From an uncultured Spirochaetia bacterium (GTDB lineage: Bacteria; Spirochaetota; Brachyspiria; Brachyspirales; Brachyspiraceae), in contig CAMQVF010000003.1 of the NCBI GenBank assembly GCA_947038115.1, forward strand, positions 1 to 61,051: DNA of 61,051 nucleotides. The letters are read 5' to 3'. The position numbers and the translations under genes were made by a program. The notes under the pieces were generated by a model. That model had not been told where the DNA came from. It did no database searches and saw only the letters and a list, made by a program, of their open reading frames with translations. This document shows positions 80 through 12,426 of the stretch, piece after piece; within the stretch, counting starts at the first letter, position 1; the number at the start of each line of letters is the position of its first letter.

Positions 80-1384
80 ATGATTTTAGAAATAATAATT
101 CCATTAGTCTCTGTTGTAATACTTTTAATGTTGTCAGCTTTGTTTTCAGGGACAGAAACTGGCTACACATCAATTGATGACGTTACACTTTTAAGGCTTG
201 TACGAAAAAACAAATTAAAAGAAAGCGATAAGAAATTTTGGACGAATAAATTTTCATTAATTCCTGCGCTATTAGTAGGAAATAACGTAGTAAATATAGC
301 AGCAACTTCGATAATTACAGTCCTTGCGATTAATGTTGCAAAAATAACACCACTCTTATCAGAAGGTGCGTCTATAACTCTTATAACCGCATTATTTACA
401 ATTACACTTTTAATATTTGGTGAAGTATTACCAAAGCTATTTATGCGAGTTAATGCTGAAACATTTGTCCCGTATATTTTTGGTTTATCTAAAACATGCT
501 TTTATTTATTCAAACCCATTACAATTCTTTTAGAAGTAATTACTAATGTTGTAATAAGATATTTATTGCCTCCTAGTATGAGACCCACGACAAAAAGTAG
601 TCTTGTTTCAAGCATGGATGACATCACTTCAATAATAAATTTGGGTCATAAAGAAGGCATAATTATAGGCTCAACTATGGATTTGCTCACAGGCGTTATA
701 GACTTTAGAAATAAAACTGCTGAATCTATAATGATACCTCGTGTCGACATGTATTCTATTGACTCTGATATGTTAGTTAAAGATATTTTAGCATTATCAA
801 TAGGAACAGGGCATAGCCGATTTCCTGTATATGACGAAAATATTGACCATATCATTGGTGTTTTTCATACTAAATCGATATTTAAAGATTATTTAAAAAA
901 TAGCATGGTAGAAAAAAAAGCTACCGACTATATAATGCTACCCTACTTCGTGCCTGAAAACAAACCAATTAGCATGCTTTTTACTGAAATGCAAAAACAA
1001 AAACTTCAAATGGTAATAGTTATTGATGAATACGGTGGCACAGCTGGTCTTATTACTATGGAAGACATTATCGAAGAAATTATGGGTGAAATTGAGGATG
1101 AAAGCGATAAAGCCCAGTCTCATATAAAATTCAAAGGTAAACGTGCAATAGTTAATGGGCTTGCTCCATTAGATTTGGTTAATACAACATTGAAACTTGA
1201 TTTTCAACATGATGAATATCAAACAATAGCTGGATATATACTTGAGTATTTGGGCAGATTGCCTGATGAAAATGAAAAAATAGTGCTTGGACATTATAAT
1301 TGTCGAATAAAAAAAATGGAAGATAGACGTATTGTCGAAGTTGAATTTGTACCGATAAAAAAGACAATAGAAGAAATACATTAA
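80..1384 (+). CDS. tlyC: HlyC/CorC (TlyC) family membrane protein with DUF21 and CBS domains
   Basis: The 434 aa product has the architecture of the CorC/CNNM family. A hydrophobic DUF21 region with several membrane segments covers about residues 1-150. A CBS pair follows (about 200-335), starting near IMIPRVDM and ending in the family-typical stretch IDEYGGTAGLITMEDIIEEI. The C-terminal CorC_HlyC domain is about 345-430. Members are linked to magnesium or cobalt homeostasis; the haemolysin name comes from Brachyspira work and may not describe the true role. The protein should sit in the inner membrane with the CBS domains in the cytoplasm. The next gene starts 11 nt downstream, so the two are probably co-transcribed. 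Family assignment is firm; transported ion unknown. Confidence 0.9.
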   Translation: MILEIIIPLVSVVILLMLSALFSGTETGYTSIDDVTLLRLVRKNKLKESDKKFWTNKFSLIPALLVGNNVVNIAATSIITVLAINVAKITPLLSEGASITLITALFTITLLIFGEVLPKLFMRVNAETFVPYIFGLSKTCFYLFKPITILLEVITNVVIRYLLPPSMRPTTKSSLVSSMDDITSIINLGHKEGIIIGSTMDLLTGVIDFRNKTAESIMIPRVDMYSIDSDMLVKDILALSIGTGHSRFPVYDENIDHIIGVFHTKSIFKDYLKNSMVEKKATDYIMLPYFVPENKPISMLFTEMQKQKLQMVIVIDEYGGTAGLITMEDIIEEIMGEIEDESDKAQSHIKFKGKRAIVNGLAPLDLVNTTLKLDFQHDEYQTIAGYILEYLGRLPDENEKIVLGHYNCRIKKMEDRRIVEVEFVPIKKTIEEIH

Positions 1385-1395
1385 AAAAATTAAAC

Positions 1396-3930
1396 ATGAG
1401 TGAAAAAGATATAAGTTCCGTATTTTCAGATGAAGCTTTAGAATTCATAAGAAAATCAATTAAAGATTCAAATGGAAATGAAGTTTATTTTGGCGTAAAC
1501 TTTGATAAACATAATATGCTAGGAATTATCGATATCATCGCACGTGGTAATAAAGATTCGGTGCCTGCAATAATATCTCTTTCATTAGAATATGATGCCG
1601 TTTTACATAATCACCCATCTGGAAACCTCACTCCATCGAGGCCAGATATTTCTATAGCTAGTGAGCTTGGCAATAATGCTGGCGTTGGTTTTTATATTAC
1701 AAACAATGATGCAAGCGATTATTATGAAGTCGTACGGCCTATAAAATCGCAAGTTGTAAAAAAGCTTGATGAGTCAGAAACTTTATTTATGTTTTCAAAT
1801 AATGGCGTATTAGCTAAATCATTAGAAAGATATGAATATAGGCAAGAACAAACCGAACTTGTCGAAGCCACAATTACCGCACTTAATAGTAATAAACATT
1901 TAATGGCTGAAGCAGGAACTGGTATTGGCAAATCACTTTCTTATTTAGTGCCCGCATTATTATGGCTTAAAGAAAACAAAACTCGAATAGTTATTTCAAC
2001 AAATACAATAAATTTGCAACAGCAGTTAATATCAAAAGATATACCTGCAATAATAAAAATAATTGCTCCTGATGTGAAATATGCATTAGTTAAAGGGCGT
2101 TATAATTATGTATGCATAAAAAAAGTAAAAGACAATATAAAAGAATATGAAGGACGTCTCGATATTAACCAAGCTATGGACTTCTTCGAGAATATCGATG
2201 ATTGGATTACAAAAACGAAAGATGGTTCACTAACAGACTTGGGCTATAAACCATCGTCAGAACTTTGGGAAATGGTTTGCTGTGATAATGATACTTGCAC
2301 ACATAGAAAATGTGAATATTTAGAAGATTGCTTTTTTTATAAAATGCGAAAACAACTTAATGCATCGCAGCTTTTAATTGTTAATCATCATATTCTTTGT
2401 GCCGACTTGGCTATTTATGCGGAGACTGAAGGTAAAATCGCACTTCTGCCTAGGTACAGCAAAGTGATAATTGATGAGGCTCATAACTTTGATAATTCGG
2501 CTTCAAGTTATTTTGGTGGTGATGGTAGTAAAAATGGAGTTCTTAAGGCACTTTATTATATATCAAATTATGGTAGAGATAAAAATAAAAAAACTGGATT
2601 TATCAGTAAAATAAAAACAATGCTTGATGATAATCAACATTTAATAGAACAAGATGAATATAATAAAACGCTTGCATATATTAATTCGGCAGATGAAAAT
2701 GCATTAAGGCTTAAAAATATTTTAGATGATTCGACTAGACAATTTATGGCTTATTGTCATGAAAATATTGAGTCAAAACCAGGAATGCCATATAAATTTA
2801 GAATAAGTGAAAAGATAATTAATAGTGAGCATTGGCAAAAAGGTTTTAATCCGCTAAATGAGCTTCATATTTCTATGCTAAGTTTGGTAAATTTATGTGA
2901 TAAACTTATAAAATATTTTTTTGATATAATAATTGAAAAGTCTATCGACTGTGAAGAGCTTATGCAAATAAGTATCGCTTATACTGAACGACTAAGAAGA
3001 CAGCTAACTTCACTTAATATTGTAATAAATTATAAAAAAGATGAATACATCAGATGGATTGAAGCTAAGATTAGTAAAAAAGGAAATTTATTACTTTCAT
3101 GGCATATCACACCAGTTGATGTTGGTGAAGCCTTGAAACAATATTTGTATAATCGCTTTGATAGCGTGCTTTTATATTCGGCAACTCTCACAGTTGGTAA
3201 AAGTTTTGACTTCTTTGAAAAAAAACTAGGATTCAATTTAATACCTAAAGAAGCAAAAATAAATATTTATCTTGAGTCAACTTTCGACTATCAAAATAAT
3301 TCAAGACTTTATATTGCGAGTAAAGCACCCGACTCTACTAATGAAAAATTTAATGATTTTGTATCAGACTCTGTGATAAAAGCTTCAGACATAACAGGTG
3401 GAAGAAGTTTTGTTTTATTCACATCTTTTAGTTTGCTCTCTTCTGTTTATAATTCGACAGTTGAAATATTAAAGTCTAAAAATATAAATATTCTCACACA
3501 AGCTTCAGGCATGCATAGGCACACAATACTTGAGATGTTTAAGTCGTCAAATAATAATGTGCTTTTTGGTGTCGATTCGTTTTGGGAAGGTGTGGATGTT
3601 GCGGGTAAAAGTCTCGAAGTGGTTATAATTCCAAAATTACCATTCGCTGTCCCAACTGATCCCATTAGTGAAGGCAGATATGAATATATAAAAGAATCAG
3701 GTGGTGACGCATTTTTAGATTATGCATTGCCATTCGCTGTAATTAGATTTAAACAAGGTTTTGGTCGATTAATTAGAAGTAAAAATGATAGAGGTGTCGT
3801 TTTTGTTTTAGATAATAGACTTGTAACGAAAAGTTATGGTAAATATTTTATAGACTCACTTCCTCCAACAAAAATTATGGCTAATTCAACTGAAAATATT
3901 TTTAAAGATATGATGTTATTTTTTGAATAA
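1396..3930 (+). CDS. DinG/XPD-type iron-sulfur helicase with N-terminal JAMM (RadC-like) domain
   Basis: This 844 aa protein fuses two domains. Residues about 1-120 resemble the RadC/JAB fold and carry the full JAMM metal motif: H71-N-H73 followed by ten residues and D84 (HNHPSGNLTPSRPD), with E29 as likely upstream glutamate. Residues about 145-844 are a DinG-type superfamily 2 helicase: Walker A AGTGIGKS (173-180), a DEAH box (IIDEAHNF), and cysteines C240, C301, C306 and C312, whose last three reproduce the C-x4-C-x5-C spacing of the DinG 4Fe-4S domain. C-terminal helicase motifs include DSFWEGVD and QGFGRLIR. Gram-positive DinG proteins often carry an exonuclease at this end; a JAMM domain is much less usual. 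Likely role: unwinding DNA or R-loops in repair. The JAMM substrate is unknown. No clear Shine-Dalgarno; probably coupled to tlyC. Confidence 0.9.
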   Translation: MSEKDISSVFSDEALEFIRKSIKDSNGNEVYFGVNFDKHNMLGIIDIIARGNKDSVPAIISLSLEYDAVLHNHPSGNLTPSRPDISIASELGNNAGVGFYITNNDASDYYEVVRPIKSQVVKKLDESETLFMFSNNGVLAKSLERYEYRQEQTELVEATITALNSNKHLMAEAGTGIGKSLSYLVPALLWLKENKTRIVISTNTINLQQQLISKDIPAIIKIIAPDVKYALVKGRYNYVCIKKVKDNIKEYEGRLDINQAMDFFENIDDWITKTKDGSLTDLGYKPSSELWEMVCCDNDTCTHRKCEYLEDCFFYKMRKQLNASQLLIVNHHILCADLAIYAETEGKIALLPRYSKVIIDEAHNFDNSASSYFGGDGSKNGVLKALYYISNYGRDKNKKTGFISKIKTMLDDNQHLIEQDEYNKTLAYINSADENALRLKNILDDSTRQFMAYCHENIESKPGMPYKFRISEKIINSEHWQKGFNPLNELHISMLSLVNLCDKLIKYFFDIIIEKSIDCEELMQISIAYTERLRRQLTSLNIVINYKKDEYIRWIEAKISKKGNLLLSWHITPVDVGEALKQYLYNRFDSVLLYSATLTVGKSFDFFEKKLGFNLIPKEAKINIYLESTFDYQNNSRLYIASKAPDSTNEKFNDFVSDSVIKASDITGGRSFVLFTSFSLLSSVYNSTVEILKSKNINILTQASGMHRHTILEMFKSSNNNVLFGVDSFWEGVDVAGKSLEVVIIPKLPFAVPTDPISEGRYEYIKESGGDAFLDYALPFAVIRFKQGFGRLIRSKNDRGVVFVLDNRLVTKSYGKYFIDSLPPTKIMANSTENIFKDMMLFFE

Positions 3931-6512: not shown

Positions 6513-7220
6513 TTAATGAATATCTTCAGCCTCCATCTCAGCCTCTTTAATCTCATTATTCATACCATCATTATTTATTATATTAGTAGCATTACTTATC
6601 GTTGGAATTCCTAATATACCATTTACACGAGTAATCGAATTTTGAAGACCTTTATAATTAGGATTGATTTTAAATGCCCGTTTATATAAATCAAGAGCAT
6701 CTATAAAATTTTTCTGTCTTTCATAAGAAGCACCTAAGTTTACAATATACACAACATTATTTGGACTATAAACTGTAGCTTTTATAAATGATGCCTCAGC
6801 TTGCTTAAAGTTCGTTTGATATAAATGTAGAAGCCCAACAAAATTATGAATATACGCACTTTTCGGATTAAATTCTAGCGACTTTTCCATAGCTAGAATA
6901 GCCTCATTCGTATTTCCAAGTTTATATAAAGAATAACCTCTTTGGAAATGAAGTGTCGATGAGTATCTATTTACAACAATACCTGAGCGTGCCGTTTTTA
7001 ACATACTATCATAATCACCCAAACGCATATAAGAATTTGCCAAAACTTCAAAATATTCGATTTTCAACACAGGAGAATTAGCTATCTCATATTCAAACAA
7101 ACGTGCCGCATTTATATAATCTCTATTTTTATATGCTCTATATGCATCATCAATATTTTTGGCAAATAGATTAAAGCATAATAACATAAAACAAGAGAAA
7201 ATGATTATTTTAATCTTCAT
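6513..7220 (-). CDS. Secreted tetratricopeptide-repeat protein
   Basis: The 236 aa product starts with a cleavable-looking signal (MKIKIIIFSCFMLLCFNLFA) and continues as TPR helices to about residue 215, with recognisable units around YRAYKNRDYINAARLFEYE, YSLYKLGNTNEAILAMEKSL and YERQKNFIDALDLYKRAF. It ends in an acidic tail. TPR proteins are scaffolds; no partner can be read here. The start at 7220 is preferred over a longer frame to 7298 because it yields the signal peptide. That makes an 11-base overlap with the upstream gene, so the two are probably translationally coupled. Likely periplasmic. Confidence 0.75.
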   Translation of the reverse strand: MKIKIIIFSCFMLLCFNLFAKNIDDAYRAYKNRDYINAARLFEYEIANSPVLKIEYFEVLANSYMRLGDYDSMLKTARSGIVVNRYSSTLHFQRGYSLYKLGNTNEAILAMEKSLEFNPKSAYIHNFVGLLHLYQTNFKQAEASFIKATVYSPNNVVYIVNLGASYERQKNFIDALDLYKRAFKINPNYKGLQNSITRVNGILGIPTISNATNIINNDGMNNEIKEAEMEAEDIH

Positions 7221-8052
7221 TTTTCTTAAAACTTTGTAGTCTAAAATCGGTAACCATGGCACGTGCATAAAGCACTGTCGCATAGTAAACTTCTTCAAAA
7301 CTCTTGCCTATAAAAAATTTATAAACACGCTCATTTAAATTTGGAAAATCGCGATGAAAATCAATCTTCTCGGTTGAACTTGATCTCACAGCTATATCAC
7401 GTAATTTTTCAAGTTTTGATAAAAATGAATGAAGAAAGAAACCAACTTCTTTTAATATAAACTGCTCAGCTCTACCAGTATTTTTATGTTTATCGAGATC
7501 GAAAATATAATCAGAATACACTTGAGGGCATTTTGAAGTGGTGTGGTCAGATACAAATTGTTGAAATCTATTATCAATATCTTTAAAAGATGACTCAACA
7601 GCATAATCACAACCTCTAAAAAGAGCATAAAACTTAACTACTGTAAAACAGCAATAAAGTTCTTCAAGACCACCGTAGATATGAGATATCTCGTCGTCAC
7701 AGTCCTCATGCAAAAACTTTTTAGGGTATTTAGTTACAGCATCATAAAAGTCAGAAATCATATCATCAACTTTCTTTGTAAATGATCGATCATAATTTTC
7801 TTGTTTTTTCTTTTCAATTGTTTCTTTACTTTTAGCCATACTCGATATCTTTGACTTAATATCACCCAATGCCTGAAATTCAGCCATTAAAAATATAGCG
7901 ACATCTGACTTACTATTTAAAGTTAGTCTATATCTTTCATTAAAAGCCTCTAAATTATAAAATCCTGCTCCATATTTAGCAGCACCATCTTCATAAGCTA
8001 ACCTTATTTTAGATAAAGTCTCAGTAATTTCTTTTTCACTAAATCTAGCCAT
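7210..8052 (-). CDS. Conserved hypothetical cytoplasmic protein
   Basis: I do not recognise this 280 aa protein. It is predicted soluble and largely helical, with a Lys/Glu-rich stretch near residues 70-90 (SKETIEKKKQEN) and a run of aromatic and Cys residues (EELYCCFTVVKFYALFRGCD) near the middle. The start at 8052 (MARFSEKEITETLSK) is chosen because a strong GGAGG lies 6 bases upstream. A longer frame to 8154 would put a promoter inside the coding region and add a hydrophobic leader. Its 3' end overlaps the TPR gene by 11 bases, suggesting one operon. Confidence 0.7.
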   Translation of the reverse strand: MARFSEKEITETLSKIRLAYEDGAAKYGAGFYNLEAFNERYRLTLNSKSDVAIFLMAEFQALGDIKSKISSMAKSKETIEKKKQENYDRSFTKKVDDMISDFYDAVTKYPKKFLHEDCDDEISHIYGGLEELYCCFTVVKFYALFRGCDYAVESSFKDIDNRFQQFVSDHTTSKCPQVYSDYIFDLDKHKNTGRAEQFILKEVGFFLHSFLSKLEKLRDIAVRSSSTEKIDFHRDFPNLNERVYKFFIGKSFEEVYYATVLYARAMVTDFRLQSFKKNED

Positions 8053-8098
8053 TAAACCTCCAACTTCTTCTGTTAAACATAAAACAATCAGTATGCAC

Positions 8099-8127
8099 AT
8101 TATATATATAAAAATACCAAATTTCAA
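8099..8127 (-). promoter_or_regulatory. Promoter for the hypothetical/TPR gene pair
   Basis: Read on the minus strand: TTGAAA (8127-8122), 17 bp, perfect TATAAT (8104-8099), about 47 nt before the chosen start at 8052. This supports the shorter start of that gene. Confidence 0.6.
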
Positions 8128-8181
8128 GTAATAAATTATAGAAAATTTACTCATTTTTAATTAATAAAAATAGATTTAGTA

Positions 8182-8380: not shown

Positions 8381-8635
8381 ATGCCAAAAAAAATAGCATT
8401 AATCGGTATAATAATTGAAGACAATAAAGTTTTTCAAGACGTGAACAACATCCTTCACGAGTATTCAAATATTATCATCGGCAGAATGGGAATACCATAT
8501 AGAGAAAGCAAAATTAATATTATAAGTTTAGTGGTTGACGGAGAGAGTGATGAAATAAACTCACTATCTGGAAAACTTGGAATGGTTGACGGCATATCAG
8601 CGAAAGTTATGTATTCTAAAAAAGAATATAATTAA
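8381..8635 (+). CDS. TM1266-family iron-only hydrogenase system regulator
   Basis: This 84 aa protein matches the small ferredoxin-fold (ACT/NikR-C-like) family typified by Thermotoga TM1266. Family marks seen are the opening strand KIALIGIIIEDN, the central NIIIGRMGIPYRE and the strand INIISLVVDG. These proteins sit next to hydrogenase maturation genes and are annotated as putative regulators of the iron-only hydrogenase system. There is no separate DNA-binding domain, so a regulatory role is inferred from family context. TGGAG lies 10-14 bases before the ATG. It heads the operon, 42 nt before hydG. Confidence 0.88.
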   Translation: MPKKIALIGIIIEDNKVFQDVNNILHEYSNIIIGRMGIPYRESKINIISLVVDGESDEINSLSGKLGMVDGISAKVMYSKKEYN

Positions 8636-8677
8636 TTTTCACTAAAAGTTTTAACATAAAATAAAAAAGGAATAATA

Positions 8678-10090
8678 ATGACAAACTGCACTAATAAAAA
8701 AGAAAAATGTTTCATCGATGATAATCAAATACTAAATATAATTGAAGAATCACAAATCGACAAAACAAAAAATGAAGTAATCGATACCATTCTAAAAAAA
8801 GCTGAAGCAATGAAAGGCTTGAGTGCTAAAGAGGCTTTAACTTTGCTTTTATGCGATGATAAAGAATATGAAAAAAAAATATTTGATCTAGCAAAAAAAA
8901 TAAAATTGGAAATATATGGGAAACGTATAGTTTTGTTTGCCCCACTCTATTTGTCTAATTATTGTATTAATGGCTGCATATATTGTCCTTATCATGCTAA
9001 AAATGAAAATATTGCAAGAAAGAAATTAACTCAAGAAGAGATAATAAAAGAAGTTATTTCACTTCAAGATATGGGTCATAAAAGGCTTGCTCTTGAAACA
9101 GGTGAAGACGAAAAAATGTCTGATATCAATTATGTAATAGAAAGCATAAAAACAATTTATAGCATTAAACATAAAAATGGAGCTATCAGACGTGTCAATG
9201 TAAATATTGCAGCAACGACTATTGAAAATTATAAAAAATTAAATGATGCTGGAATTGGAACATATATTTTATTTCAAGAAACATATCATGAAACTACATA
9301 TAAAAAAATGCATCCAACAGGCCCTAAAAGCAATTACAATTATCACACAACAGCGATGGATAGAGCAATGGAAGCAGGAATCGATGATGTTGGAATTGGC
9401 GTATTATTTGGGCTTTATGATTATAAATATGACTTTGCTTCCCTACTTATGCATGCCGAACATTTGGAAGAAAAATTTGGCTGCGGCCCTCACACAATTA
9501 GTGTTCCAAGAATTAGACCAGCCGATGACGTTGATTTAAATGAGTTTCATAGCAAAATAACAGATGAAATTTTCAAAAAAATTATAGCTATTTTAAGAAT
9601 AGCTGTGCCTTATACTGGAATTATAGTATCTACTCGTGAGAGCATACAATCTCGTGAAGATGTTTTAGATATTGGAGTGTCTCAAATAAGCGGAGCATCT
9701 CGAACAAGCGTTGGCGGTTATGCTGAAGAAGAAACAGAAAACTCAAAACAATTTGAAGTTAATGACACAAGAACACTCGACGATATTGTCGCTTGGTTAT
9801 GCTCGATAGGATATATGCCTAGTTTTTGCACAGCATGTTATCATGAAGGACGCACTGGTGACGTGTTTATGGGCTTTGCAAAAGAAGGACATATTAAAGA
9901 TTTTTGCCAAGTAAACTCTCTAATTACACTTAAAGAATATATTAATGATTATGCATCTGAAAGCTCAAAGGCACAAGCAGAAGAAACTTTTGCTAGTGAA
10001 CTTGATAAAGTTCCAAATGACAAAATGAAAGAACAATTAATTAAAATATTAAATAAAGTTGATAAAGGTGAAAGAGACTTCAGGTTTTAA
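8678..10090 (+). CDS. hydG: [FeFe]-hydrogenase maturase HydG (radical SAM tyrosine lyase)
   Basis: HydG cleaves tyrosine with radical SAM chemistry and builds the Fe(CO)(CN) synthon of the hydrogenase H-cluster. The 470 aa length is typical. The radical SAM motif C96-x3-C100-x2-C103 (CINGCIYC) marks the first cluster. Near the C-terminus a second motif, CTAC followed by 22 residues and Cys (ending DFC), is the HydG-specific CX2CX22C ligand set for the auxiliary cluster. Other family segments are ALETGED, LFQETYHETTYKKMHP and RIRPADDVDL. AAGGA sits before the ATG. Followed by hydF after 11 nt. No structural hydrogenase gene is in the window. Confidence 0.97.
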   Translation: MTNCTNKKEKCFIDDNQILNIIEESQIDKTKNEVIDTILKKAEAMKGLSAKEALTLLLCDDKEYEKKIFDLAKKIKLEIYGKRIVLFAPLYLSNYCINGCIYCPYHAKNENIARKKLTQEEIIKEVISLQDMGHKRLALETGEDEKMSDINYVIESIKTIYSIKHKNGAIRRVNVNIAATTIENYKKLNDAGIGTYILFQETYHETTYKKMHPTGPKSNYNYHTTAMDRAMEAGIDDVGIGVLFGLYDYKYDFASLLMHAEHLEEKFGCGPHTISVPRIRPADDVDLNEFHSKITDEIFKKIIAILRIAVPYTGIIVSTRESIQSREDVLDIGVSQISGASRTSVGGYAEEETENSKQFEVNDTRTLDDIVAWLCSIGYMPSFCTACYHEGRTGDVFMGFAKEGHIKDFCQVNSLITLKEYINDYASESSKAQAEETFASELDKVPNDKMKEQLIKILNKVDKGERDFRF

Positions 10091-10101
10091 TATATATTAT
10101 T

Positions 10102-11307
10102 ATGGACAACACATTAAACAATACACCAAATGCTAATCGAATTCATATCGCAATTTTTGGACGCAGAAATGTCGGCAAGTCAAGCATAATAAATAGATTA
10201 GCAAGTCAAGATATTTCTATAGTCTCTGACATACTCGGCACAACGACAGACCCTGTATATAAATCGATAGAAATTAAAGGGCTTGGAGCTTGCGTGATTG
10301 TTGATACGGCGGGCTTTGATGATATCGATACTGAACTTGGACAATTAAGAGTTAATAAAACTAAAAAAATTATCGCTAAAACAGATATAGCCATTTTAGT
10401 TTTGGACGGAAGTGATATTGAAAATAATAATTTTGACTTTGAAAAAAAATGGATAAAATATTTAGAAGATGCCAACACACCTATAATTATAGCAATTAAT
10501 AAAATCGACTTAATAGACAAAAATGATAATACTAAAGCGAGTCAAATAGAAAATATTTTAGATAAAAAAACTATTTGTATTAGTGCGAAAAACAATGATA
10601 ATATAAAAGAGCTTATCGATTTAATTATTATAAGTCTTAAAACTGATGATGAACTTTCTATAGTTGGACATCTCATAAACGAGAATGATGTCGTCATGCT
10701 TGTAATGCCCCAAGATATTCAAGCACCTAAAGGACGTTTAATTTTACCACAAGTGCAAACTATTAGAGATTTACTCGATAATAAAGCTATCATTATTTCA
10801 TCAACTTTTGATAAAATTGAACAATCACTTTCCGCATTAAAAAATCCTCCAAAACTAATTATTACCGATTCACAAATATTTAAAGAAGTTGAAAATATAA
10901 AACCAGAAGGCTCGCTACTCACATCTTTTTCAGTTTTATTTGCTCGTTATAAAGGCGATGAAAAAGTGTATAAAAATGGGGCTTGTTTTATTGATAATCT
11001 AAAAGAAAATGATAGTATTTTAATTGCTGAAAGTTGCTCGCATTTACCACTCGATGGCGACATTGCACGTATAAAATTACCTAAAATGCTTAAAAATAAA
11101 ATAGGACAAAATATTAATATCGATATAGTTTCAGGTAATAATTTTCCAGATAATCTCACTCCATACAAATTAATTATTCATTGTGGAGGATGTATGGCTA
11201 CTCGTAAAGCTATTTTAAGCAGAATAAAATCGGCACAAAAACAAAATGTTGCTATCACAAATTACGGAATGGCTATAGCAAAACTTACAAATACATTTTA
11301 CGTTTAA
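10102..11307 (+). CDS. hydF: [FeFe]-hydrogenase maturation GTPase HydF
   Basis: HydF is the scaffold GTPase on which the 2Fe subcluster is assembled before transfer to the hydrogenase. Visible GTPase motifs are G1 GRRNVGKSS (near residue 20), the switch region TTTDPV, G3 DTAGFDD, G4 NKID and G5 SAK. The C-terminal cluster-binding part shows C-S-H (ESCSHLPLDGD) and later HCGGC, the C-x-H...HCxxC pattern of HydF. Length 401 aa is normal. No Shine-Dalgarno precedes the ATG; it lies 11 nt after hydG and is probably translated by coupling. Confidence 0.96.
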   Translation: MDNTLNNTPNANRIHIAIFGRRNVGKSSIINRLASQDISIVSDILGTTTDPVYKSIEIKGLGACVIVDTAGFDDIDTELGQLRVNKTKKIIAKTDIAILVLDGSDIENNNFDFEKKWIKYLEDANTPIIIAINKIDLIDKNDNTKASQIENILDKKTICISAKNNDNIKELIDLIIISLKTDDELSIVGHLINENDVVMLVMPQDIQAPKGRLILPQVQTIRDLLDNKAIIISSTFDKIEQSLSALKNPPKLIITDSQIFKEVENIKPEGSLLTSFSVLFARYKGDEKVYKNGACFIDNLKENDSILIAESCSHLPLDGDIARIKLPKMLKNKIGQNINIDIVSGNNFPDNLTPYKLIIHCGGCMATRKAILSRIKSAQKQNVAITNYGMAIAKLTNTFYV

Positions 11308-11325
11308 AGAATTATAAAATATAAT

Positions 11326-12426
11326 ATGAAAGAAAAAATAATAAAAATAATTGATAATCTAAATGATAATGGCAAAATTAATAAAAAAGAAATATTACTT
11401 TTATTAACTAATTTATGCGATAGTGAAAATACAAAACTATCAAAAATCGAAATAGAAAGCCTGCAAGAATACCTCCGTGAAAAGGCATATATTAAATCAC
11501 ATAAAATTTTCGGCAACAAAGTCTACATGCGTGGGCTTATCGAATTTAGTAATTATTGTAAAAATGACTGCATCTATTGCGGAATACGTAAAAGTAATAA
11601 AAATGCCCAAAGATATAGATTATCAAAAGATGACATTTTAGAATGTTGTGATGAAGGCTATAAACTCGGGTTTAGAACTTTTGTACTCCAAAGCGGTGAG
11701 GATATGTTTTTCACTAAAAAAAGAATAGTCGATATAACATCATCCATAAAAAATAAATACCCCGACTGTGCTTTAACTTTATCAATCGGCGAAAAAAATT
11801 ATGATTATTATAAAGCTATAAAAGAAAGCGGAGTTAATAGATTTCTGTTAAGGCATGAAACATCCACTGAAGAGCATTATAACAAACTTCACCCAAAAGA
11901 GCTTTTATTAAAAAAGAGACTGGAATGCTTAAAAATAATAAAAGAACTAGGCTTTCAAACTGGCACAGGAATTATGGTTGGAAGTCCTTTTCAAACAATT
12001 AATAATATTACAAATGACTTAATATTCATAAAAAAACTAAAACCTGAAATGATTGGAATCGGCCCTTTTTTGCCCCATGAAGATACACCATTTAAAGACA
12101 AAGATAAAGGTTCTATAAACACAACATTAATATTGATAAGTATTTTAAGACTTCTTTTTCCTTTTGCATTAATCCCATCAACCACTGCACTCGGCACAAT
12201 TTCAAAAAATGGTCGAGAGCGTGGAATACTTGCTGGAGCTAATGTCGTTATGCCTAATTTATCACCTCTAAGTGTACGCAAGAAATATTCTCTTTATAAT
12301 GATAAAATTTGCACCGATGAAGAAGCAATGGAAGGACTTGAACTTTTAAGAGCGAAAATGCTTGCAATTGGATACGAAATTACTGGTGAACGAGGCGATC
12401 ACATAAAGCATATTTTTAAACAATAA
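11326..12426 (+). CDS. hydE: [FeFe]-hydrogenase maturase HydE (radical SAM)
   Basis: HydE is the radical SAM enzyme acting with HydG and HydF to build the H-cluster. The 366 aa protein has the radical SAM motif CKNDCIYC (CX3CX2C) near residue 80, then LQSGED, the LLRHET segment and GIMVGSPFQT, all typical of HydE. At the C-terminus only one cysteine (KICTDEE) remains where Thermotoga HydE has three that bind a second, dispensable cluster, so this protein should hold only the SAM cluster. It lies 18 nt after hydF and lacks a clear Shine-Dalgarno. No hairpin terminator is visible after it before the next promoter. Confidence 0.95.
   Translation: MKEKIIKIIDNLNDNGKINKKEILLLLTNLCDSENTKLSKIEIESLQEYLREKAYIKSHKIFGNKVYMRGLIEFSNYCKNDCIYCGIRKSNKNAQRYRLSKDDILECCDEGYKLGFRTFVLQSGEDMFFTKKRIVDITSSIKNKYPDCALTLSIGEKNYDYYKAIKESGVNRFLLRHETSTEEHYNKLHPKELLLKKRLECLKIIKELGFQTGTGIMVGSPFQTINNITNDLIFIKKLKPEMIGIGPFLPHEDTPFKDKDKGSINTTLILISILRLLFPFALIPSTTALGTISKNGRERGILAGANVVMPNLSPLSVRKKYSLYNDKICTDEEAMEGLELLRAKMLAIGYEITGERGDHIKHIFKQ

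Follow-up and report, generated by a model that had tools for sequence, protein, structure and literature searches.

The window analysed, a stretch of 61,051 nucleotides of spirochaetal DNA, carries near its start an open reading frame with an ATG start and no internal stops, which encodes an intact protein combining an N-terminal RadC-clade JAMM domain with an Fe-S helicase (Table 1). The gene is present in a single copy in the 1.77-Mb genome. It possibly shares a transcript with the gene for a CNNM/CorC-type membrane protein located just upstream. When the neighbourhoods of carriers were compared, no operon partner conserved across families was found, the neighbours being changing housekeeping and regulatory genes, and no gene for a ubiquitin-like protein was seen among the recurrent ones.

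Table 1. Features of the fusion gene and the gene upstream of it (window coordinates)
Feature	Position	Strand	Evidence or remark
CNNM/CorC-type membrane protein	80..1384	+	ends 11 bp upstream of the fusion gene
RadC-like DinG: fused JAMM domain and Fe-S SF2 helicase, 844 aa	1396..3930	+	ORF, Pfam, residue check
RadC-clade JAMM/JAB domain, residues 1-131	1396..1788	+	PF04002, PDB profile, AlphaFold2, Foldseek
E29, predicted catalytic Glu	1480..1482	+	in 71/71 fused homologues with sequence there; aligns with the Glu of RadC 2qlc
H71-N-H73-P-SGNLTP-S81-RP-D84, predicted zinc ligands and catalytic Ser	1606..1647	+	aligned to RadC 2qlc and AfJAMM
DinG/YoaA-type helicase, residues 131-844	1786..3927	+	DEAD, Helicase_C_2 (Pfam); Foldseek
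Fe-S domain region, C240, C301, C306, C312	2113..2331	+	residue check, homologue alignment

Further along the window, an [FeFe]-hydrogenase maturation cluster was recognized at 8381-12426 of the plus strand, with consecutive genes for a TM1266-family regulator, HydG, HydF and HydE, each scoring above its NCBIfam cut-off. Two minus-strand frames, 6513-7298 and 7210-8154, are called with 89 bases in common; one encodes a TPR protein, whose start codon may have been called too early, and the other gave no significant Pfam match. A second RadC-like gene, at genome coordinates G000:C55:10809-11170 (L032, L035), appears as two neighbouring pieces in separate open frames and is perhaps a frameshifted or decayed copy.

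The original prediction had read a complete JAMM motif at residues 71-84 and a likely Glu at 29 in a RadC-like context, and E29, H71, H73 and D84 were all found as proposed, together with P74 and S81. The signature of the protein runs E29...H71-N-H73-P-x6-S81-x2-D84. Its H73-x7-S81-x2-D84 part matches the published JAMM motif, EXnHS/THX7SXXD, with N replacing S/T between the histidines, a replacement recorded in distant JAMM relatives (PMC300881). The Pfam RadC/JAB family PF04002 matched residues 12-93 above its curated cut-off of 22.1 bits (26.0 bits with the full protein, 30.7 with the domain alone), with matches in 29/29 members. A PDB profile search related the N-terminal domain to RadC 2qlc (E=1.4e-8), and in the profile alignments E29, H71, H73 and D84 pair with residues of RadC 2qlc and H71, H73 and D84 with residues of AfJAMM. 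The AlphaFold2 model had a pLDDT of 93.6 for the domain and 88.8 at full length, and a Foldseek search with the domain returned RadC 2qlc, CsRpn11, AfJAMM and PfJAMM1 with probability 1.00 and TM-scores of about 0.5, which places the domain in the MPN/JAB fold. By Pfam, PDB profile and fold alike, RadC is the closest family. In the model, E29 directly precedes strand 30-36, H71 and H73 end strand 68-73, and D84 opens helix 82-95, the same layout as that given for the E/H/H/D site of a published RadC-like DinG subgroup (PMC11981726). These secondary-structure positions and the fold matches are consistent with the convergence of the four residues on one zinc.

The rest of the protein was correctly anticipated to be a DinG-type Fe-S helicase, though the best NCBIfam score was for YoaA (538.9 bits; cut-off 680), with 489 and 389 bits for DinG; none of these scores reached its equivalog cut-off. 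Walker A, DEAH and motif VI are intact, and the Fe-S cysteines have the C-x4-C-x5-C spacing with one further Cys upstream, as in DinG. With the full model, Foldseek matched E. coli DinG (6fwr, E=2.7e-39). PADLOC was consulted for membership of a defence system, which was rejected: its matches were essentially to the DinG helicase of type IV CRISPR and reflect helicase similarity; for CRISPR context, the neighbouring genes were considered.

Helicase matches were obtained in 351 of 393 genomes of the phylum searched, and a profile built from just the N-terminal domain (threshold E <= 1e-12) found the fused-type domain in 172 of 387. Within the source's own family the domain was present in all 29 genomes sampled (counted by eye), and several of the genomes carrying it are single-contig assemblies. 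An alignment scan of named genomes located the fusion in Geobacteraceae, other Desulfuromonadales, Gemmatimonadota, KSB1, Hydrogenedentes, Sumerlaeota, Dadabacteria, an Acidimicrobiia MAG and others, where the taxon labels of MAGs may be wrong for single cases. An assembly artefact, which had been named as a possible undoing of the prediction, or a chance joining of two genes can be dismissed with near certainty, given the identical architecture in 29/29 genomes of the family, the spread through the phylum, single-contig assemblies included, and the recurrence in Geobacteraceae, Gemmatimonadota, KSB1 and others. Six spirochaete carriers (G063, G096, G270, G320, G342, G379) have open frames of approximately 950-1170 aa around the domain, which possibly hold a further domain.

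Across 72 fused homologues from many phyla, H71, N72, H73, P74, S81 and D84 are identical throughout, and E29 proved equally constant wherever sequence was available. Since the mean pairwise identity of these proteins is 37% for the domain and 36% for the helicase, conservation of the signature is far beyond chance. The Fe-S cysteines vary more than the JAMM residues, with Ser replacing C240 in 4 and C301 in 2 of the 72 proteins. In the Gemmatimonadota RadC-like DinGs L095, L102, L104 and L140, the first Fe-S cysteine is Ser and the JAMM site is intact.

To map the fusion, a tree was built from 126 helicase cores; its root and several of its deep branches are uncertain, and it contains one long branch. 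Spirochaete proteins without the domain lie nested between fused proteins at several points (the genus of L066/L067; L068/L069; L070; L071; L072/L073). Because of this nesting, loss is the simple reading, according to which at least five spirochaete lineages would have cleanly lost the domain and kept the helicase. A split or orphan JAMM gene in the lineages without the fusion was ruled out, as the search for a separate copy in these genomes left nothing beyond weak, ordinary RadC-like matches, and in one genome no match at all. DinG relatives of Bacillota and Chloroflexota carry DEDD exonuclease N-termini, in agreement with the earlier remark that an exonuclease takes this position in other DinGs, and they occupy a different region of the tree.

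Our best guess from these comparisons is that the N-terminal domain is an active RadC-clade metallohydrolase that works on material exposed by the helicase and is likelier to be nucleolytic than proteolytic. H71, H73 and D84 would hold zinc, E29 would activate water and S81 would stabilise the transition state, roles that would make the domain a working metallohydrolase rather than a structural remnant. Less surely, it would act on nucleic acid as a nuclease or in end-processing. The helicase, which we take to have the 5'-3' polarity of the DinG/YoaA family, would load on ssDNA at flaps, R-loops or stalled structures, then translocate, and the N-terminal domain would cut the exposed strand, in the slot of the DEDD exonuclease of ExoDinG. 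Several lineages have retained the helicase but not the domain, which would make the domain an accessory of the helicase. For this reading as a whole, a zinc metallohydrolase that cuts nucleic acid as an accessory to a DinG/YoaA helicase, we see an even chance.

The presence of a DEDD exonuclease at the same position in related DinGs counts for a nucleic-acid substrate, positional equivalence being a weak argument. RadC-clade JABs are reported to be without the groove for a ubiquitin tail (PMC5512222), and RadC fusions have been held to argue for a nuclease (PMC5512222, PMC3482391). Against a nuclease, the biochemically characterised JAB domains are described as peptidases (PMC5512222), no demonstrated RadC nuclease was found, and E. 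coli radC mutants are reported, in a citation within PMC11981726, to be normally resistant to DNA damage. The suggested role in repair or replication stress can reasonably be derived from the kind of helicase; it gained no support here, the gene neighbourhood being uninformative.

The domain could instead be a protease without specificity for ubiquitin-like tails, which cuts proteins met by the helicase, such as DNA-protein crosslinks or a bound partner; this is possible but the less probable alternative. SPRTN-like metalloproteases do such cutting in eukaryotes. The domain has all the JAMM catalytic residues seen in peptidases of this kind, among them the Ser for stabilising the tetrahedral intermediate, it matches Rpn11, AfJAMM and PfJAMM1 in Foldseek, and a protein-displacing helicase would be a natural partner for it. 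However, the closer family is RadC, with the reported lack of a substrate-tail groove (PMC5512222), and neither a candidate substrate nor a conserved neighbour gene was found. A domain binding metal or DNA without catalysis, as a structural or sensing module, is unlikely. Its dispensability in several lineages would suit such a module, but a structural site would not need E29 and S81. Neither of these two residues is a zinc ligand and both are as constant as the ligands, a pattern that speaks for an active hydrolase.

An isopeptidase removing a ubiquitin-like modifier from DNA-bound proteins, at which the original prediction had hinted, is very improbable. The fold similarity to Rpn11 and CsRpn11 would agree with it, as would the ThiF and ThiS homologues of some carriers, the source genome included. 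However, ThiF was absent in 5 and ThiS/MoaD in 11 of 16 carrier genomes, with both missing in 5 of them, and the four other genomes tested from the source's own family are among those with neither; the active site is still invariant. An E1-like protein together with a ubiquitin-like one, expected if the domain served such a modifier, was thus not a constant feature of carriers, and no gene of the latter kind was seen among the recurrent neighbours. Because five of the 16 carriers are without both, carriers do not in general have a ubiquitin-like substrate to offer; the gaps speak against a general substrate of this kind and not against other protein substrates.

To our knowledge, RadC has no settled biochemical function, and the fusion offers a tractable protein for testing RadC activity beside a helicase. 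The invariance of the whole catalytic set argues that the domain is an enzyme. Should it cleave DNA or RNA, for which the chances appear somewhat short of even, RadC-type JAMM domains would form a new class of zinc nucleases and RadC-like DinG would be a helicase-nuclease.

Compared with stand-alone RadC (PF04002, 2qlc), the protein shares the JAB clade and the HNHPSG...PS..D signature but has a helicase attached, and it scores 21.5 bits with the NCBIfam RadC equivalog (UPF0758), against a cut-off of 180. AfJAMM, PfJAMM1 and Rpn11 (JAMM/MPN+ proteases) resemble it in fold and zinc-site signature and differ in having H(S/T)H in place of HNH, with weak sequence similarity (E ~0.1). ExoDinG of the Bacillus/Staphylococcus type likewise places an enzyme domain ahead of the DinG helicase, whereas its DEDD exonuclease is of an unrelated fold. 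YoaA and E. coli DinG share the helicase motifs and Fe-S cysteines but are without the JAMM domain. The fusion and its positional equivalence to nucleases are not novel: by its description, the RadC-DinG/RAD3 fusion of Iyer et al. 2017 (PMC5512222, which cites the authors' own 2011 NAR paper) is the same and comes with the same argument. "RadC-like DinG" is, moreover, a named subgroup with an E/H/H/D site and a modelled zinc (Cheng 2025, PMC11981726 section 3.8), where a metalloprotease-like site is described and HolC is reported absent from the hosts. As a discovery the protein is therefore ordinary: its architecture and four-residue site have been published before, and so has the argument from the domain swap. 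By its sequence it belongs to this subgroup, combining in one open reading frame the E/H/H/D site, four Fe-S cysteines and intact helicase motifs. Like the Desulfuromonas soudanensis type, it has a RadC-like N-terminus with conserved E, H, H and D on a YoaA/DinG-like Fe-S helicase; nothing essential differs except that it is spirochaetal, and no spirochaetes are named in the main text of PMC11981726. What is added to these accounts is the measured wide conservation, the secondary losses and the case against a ubiquitin-like substrate.
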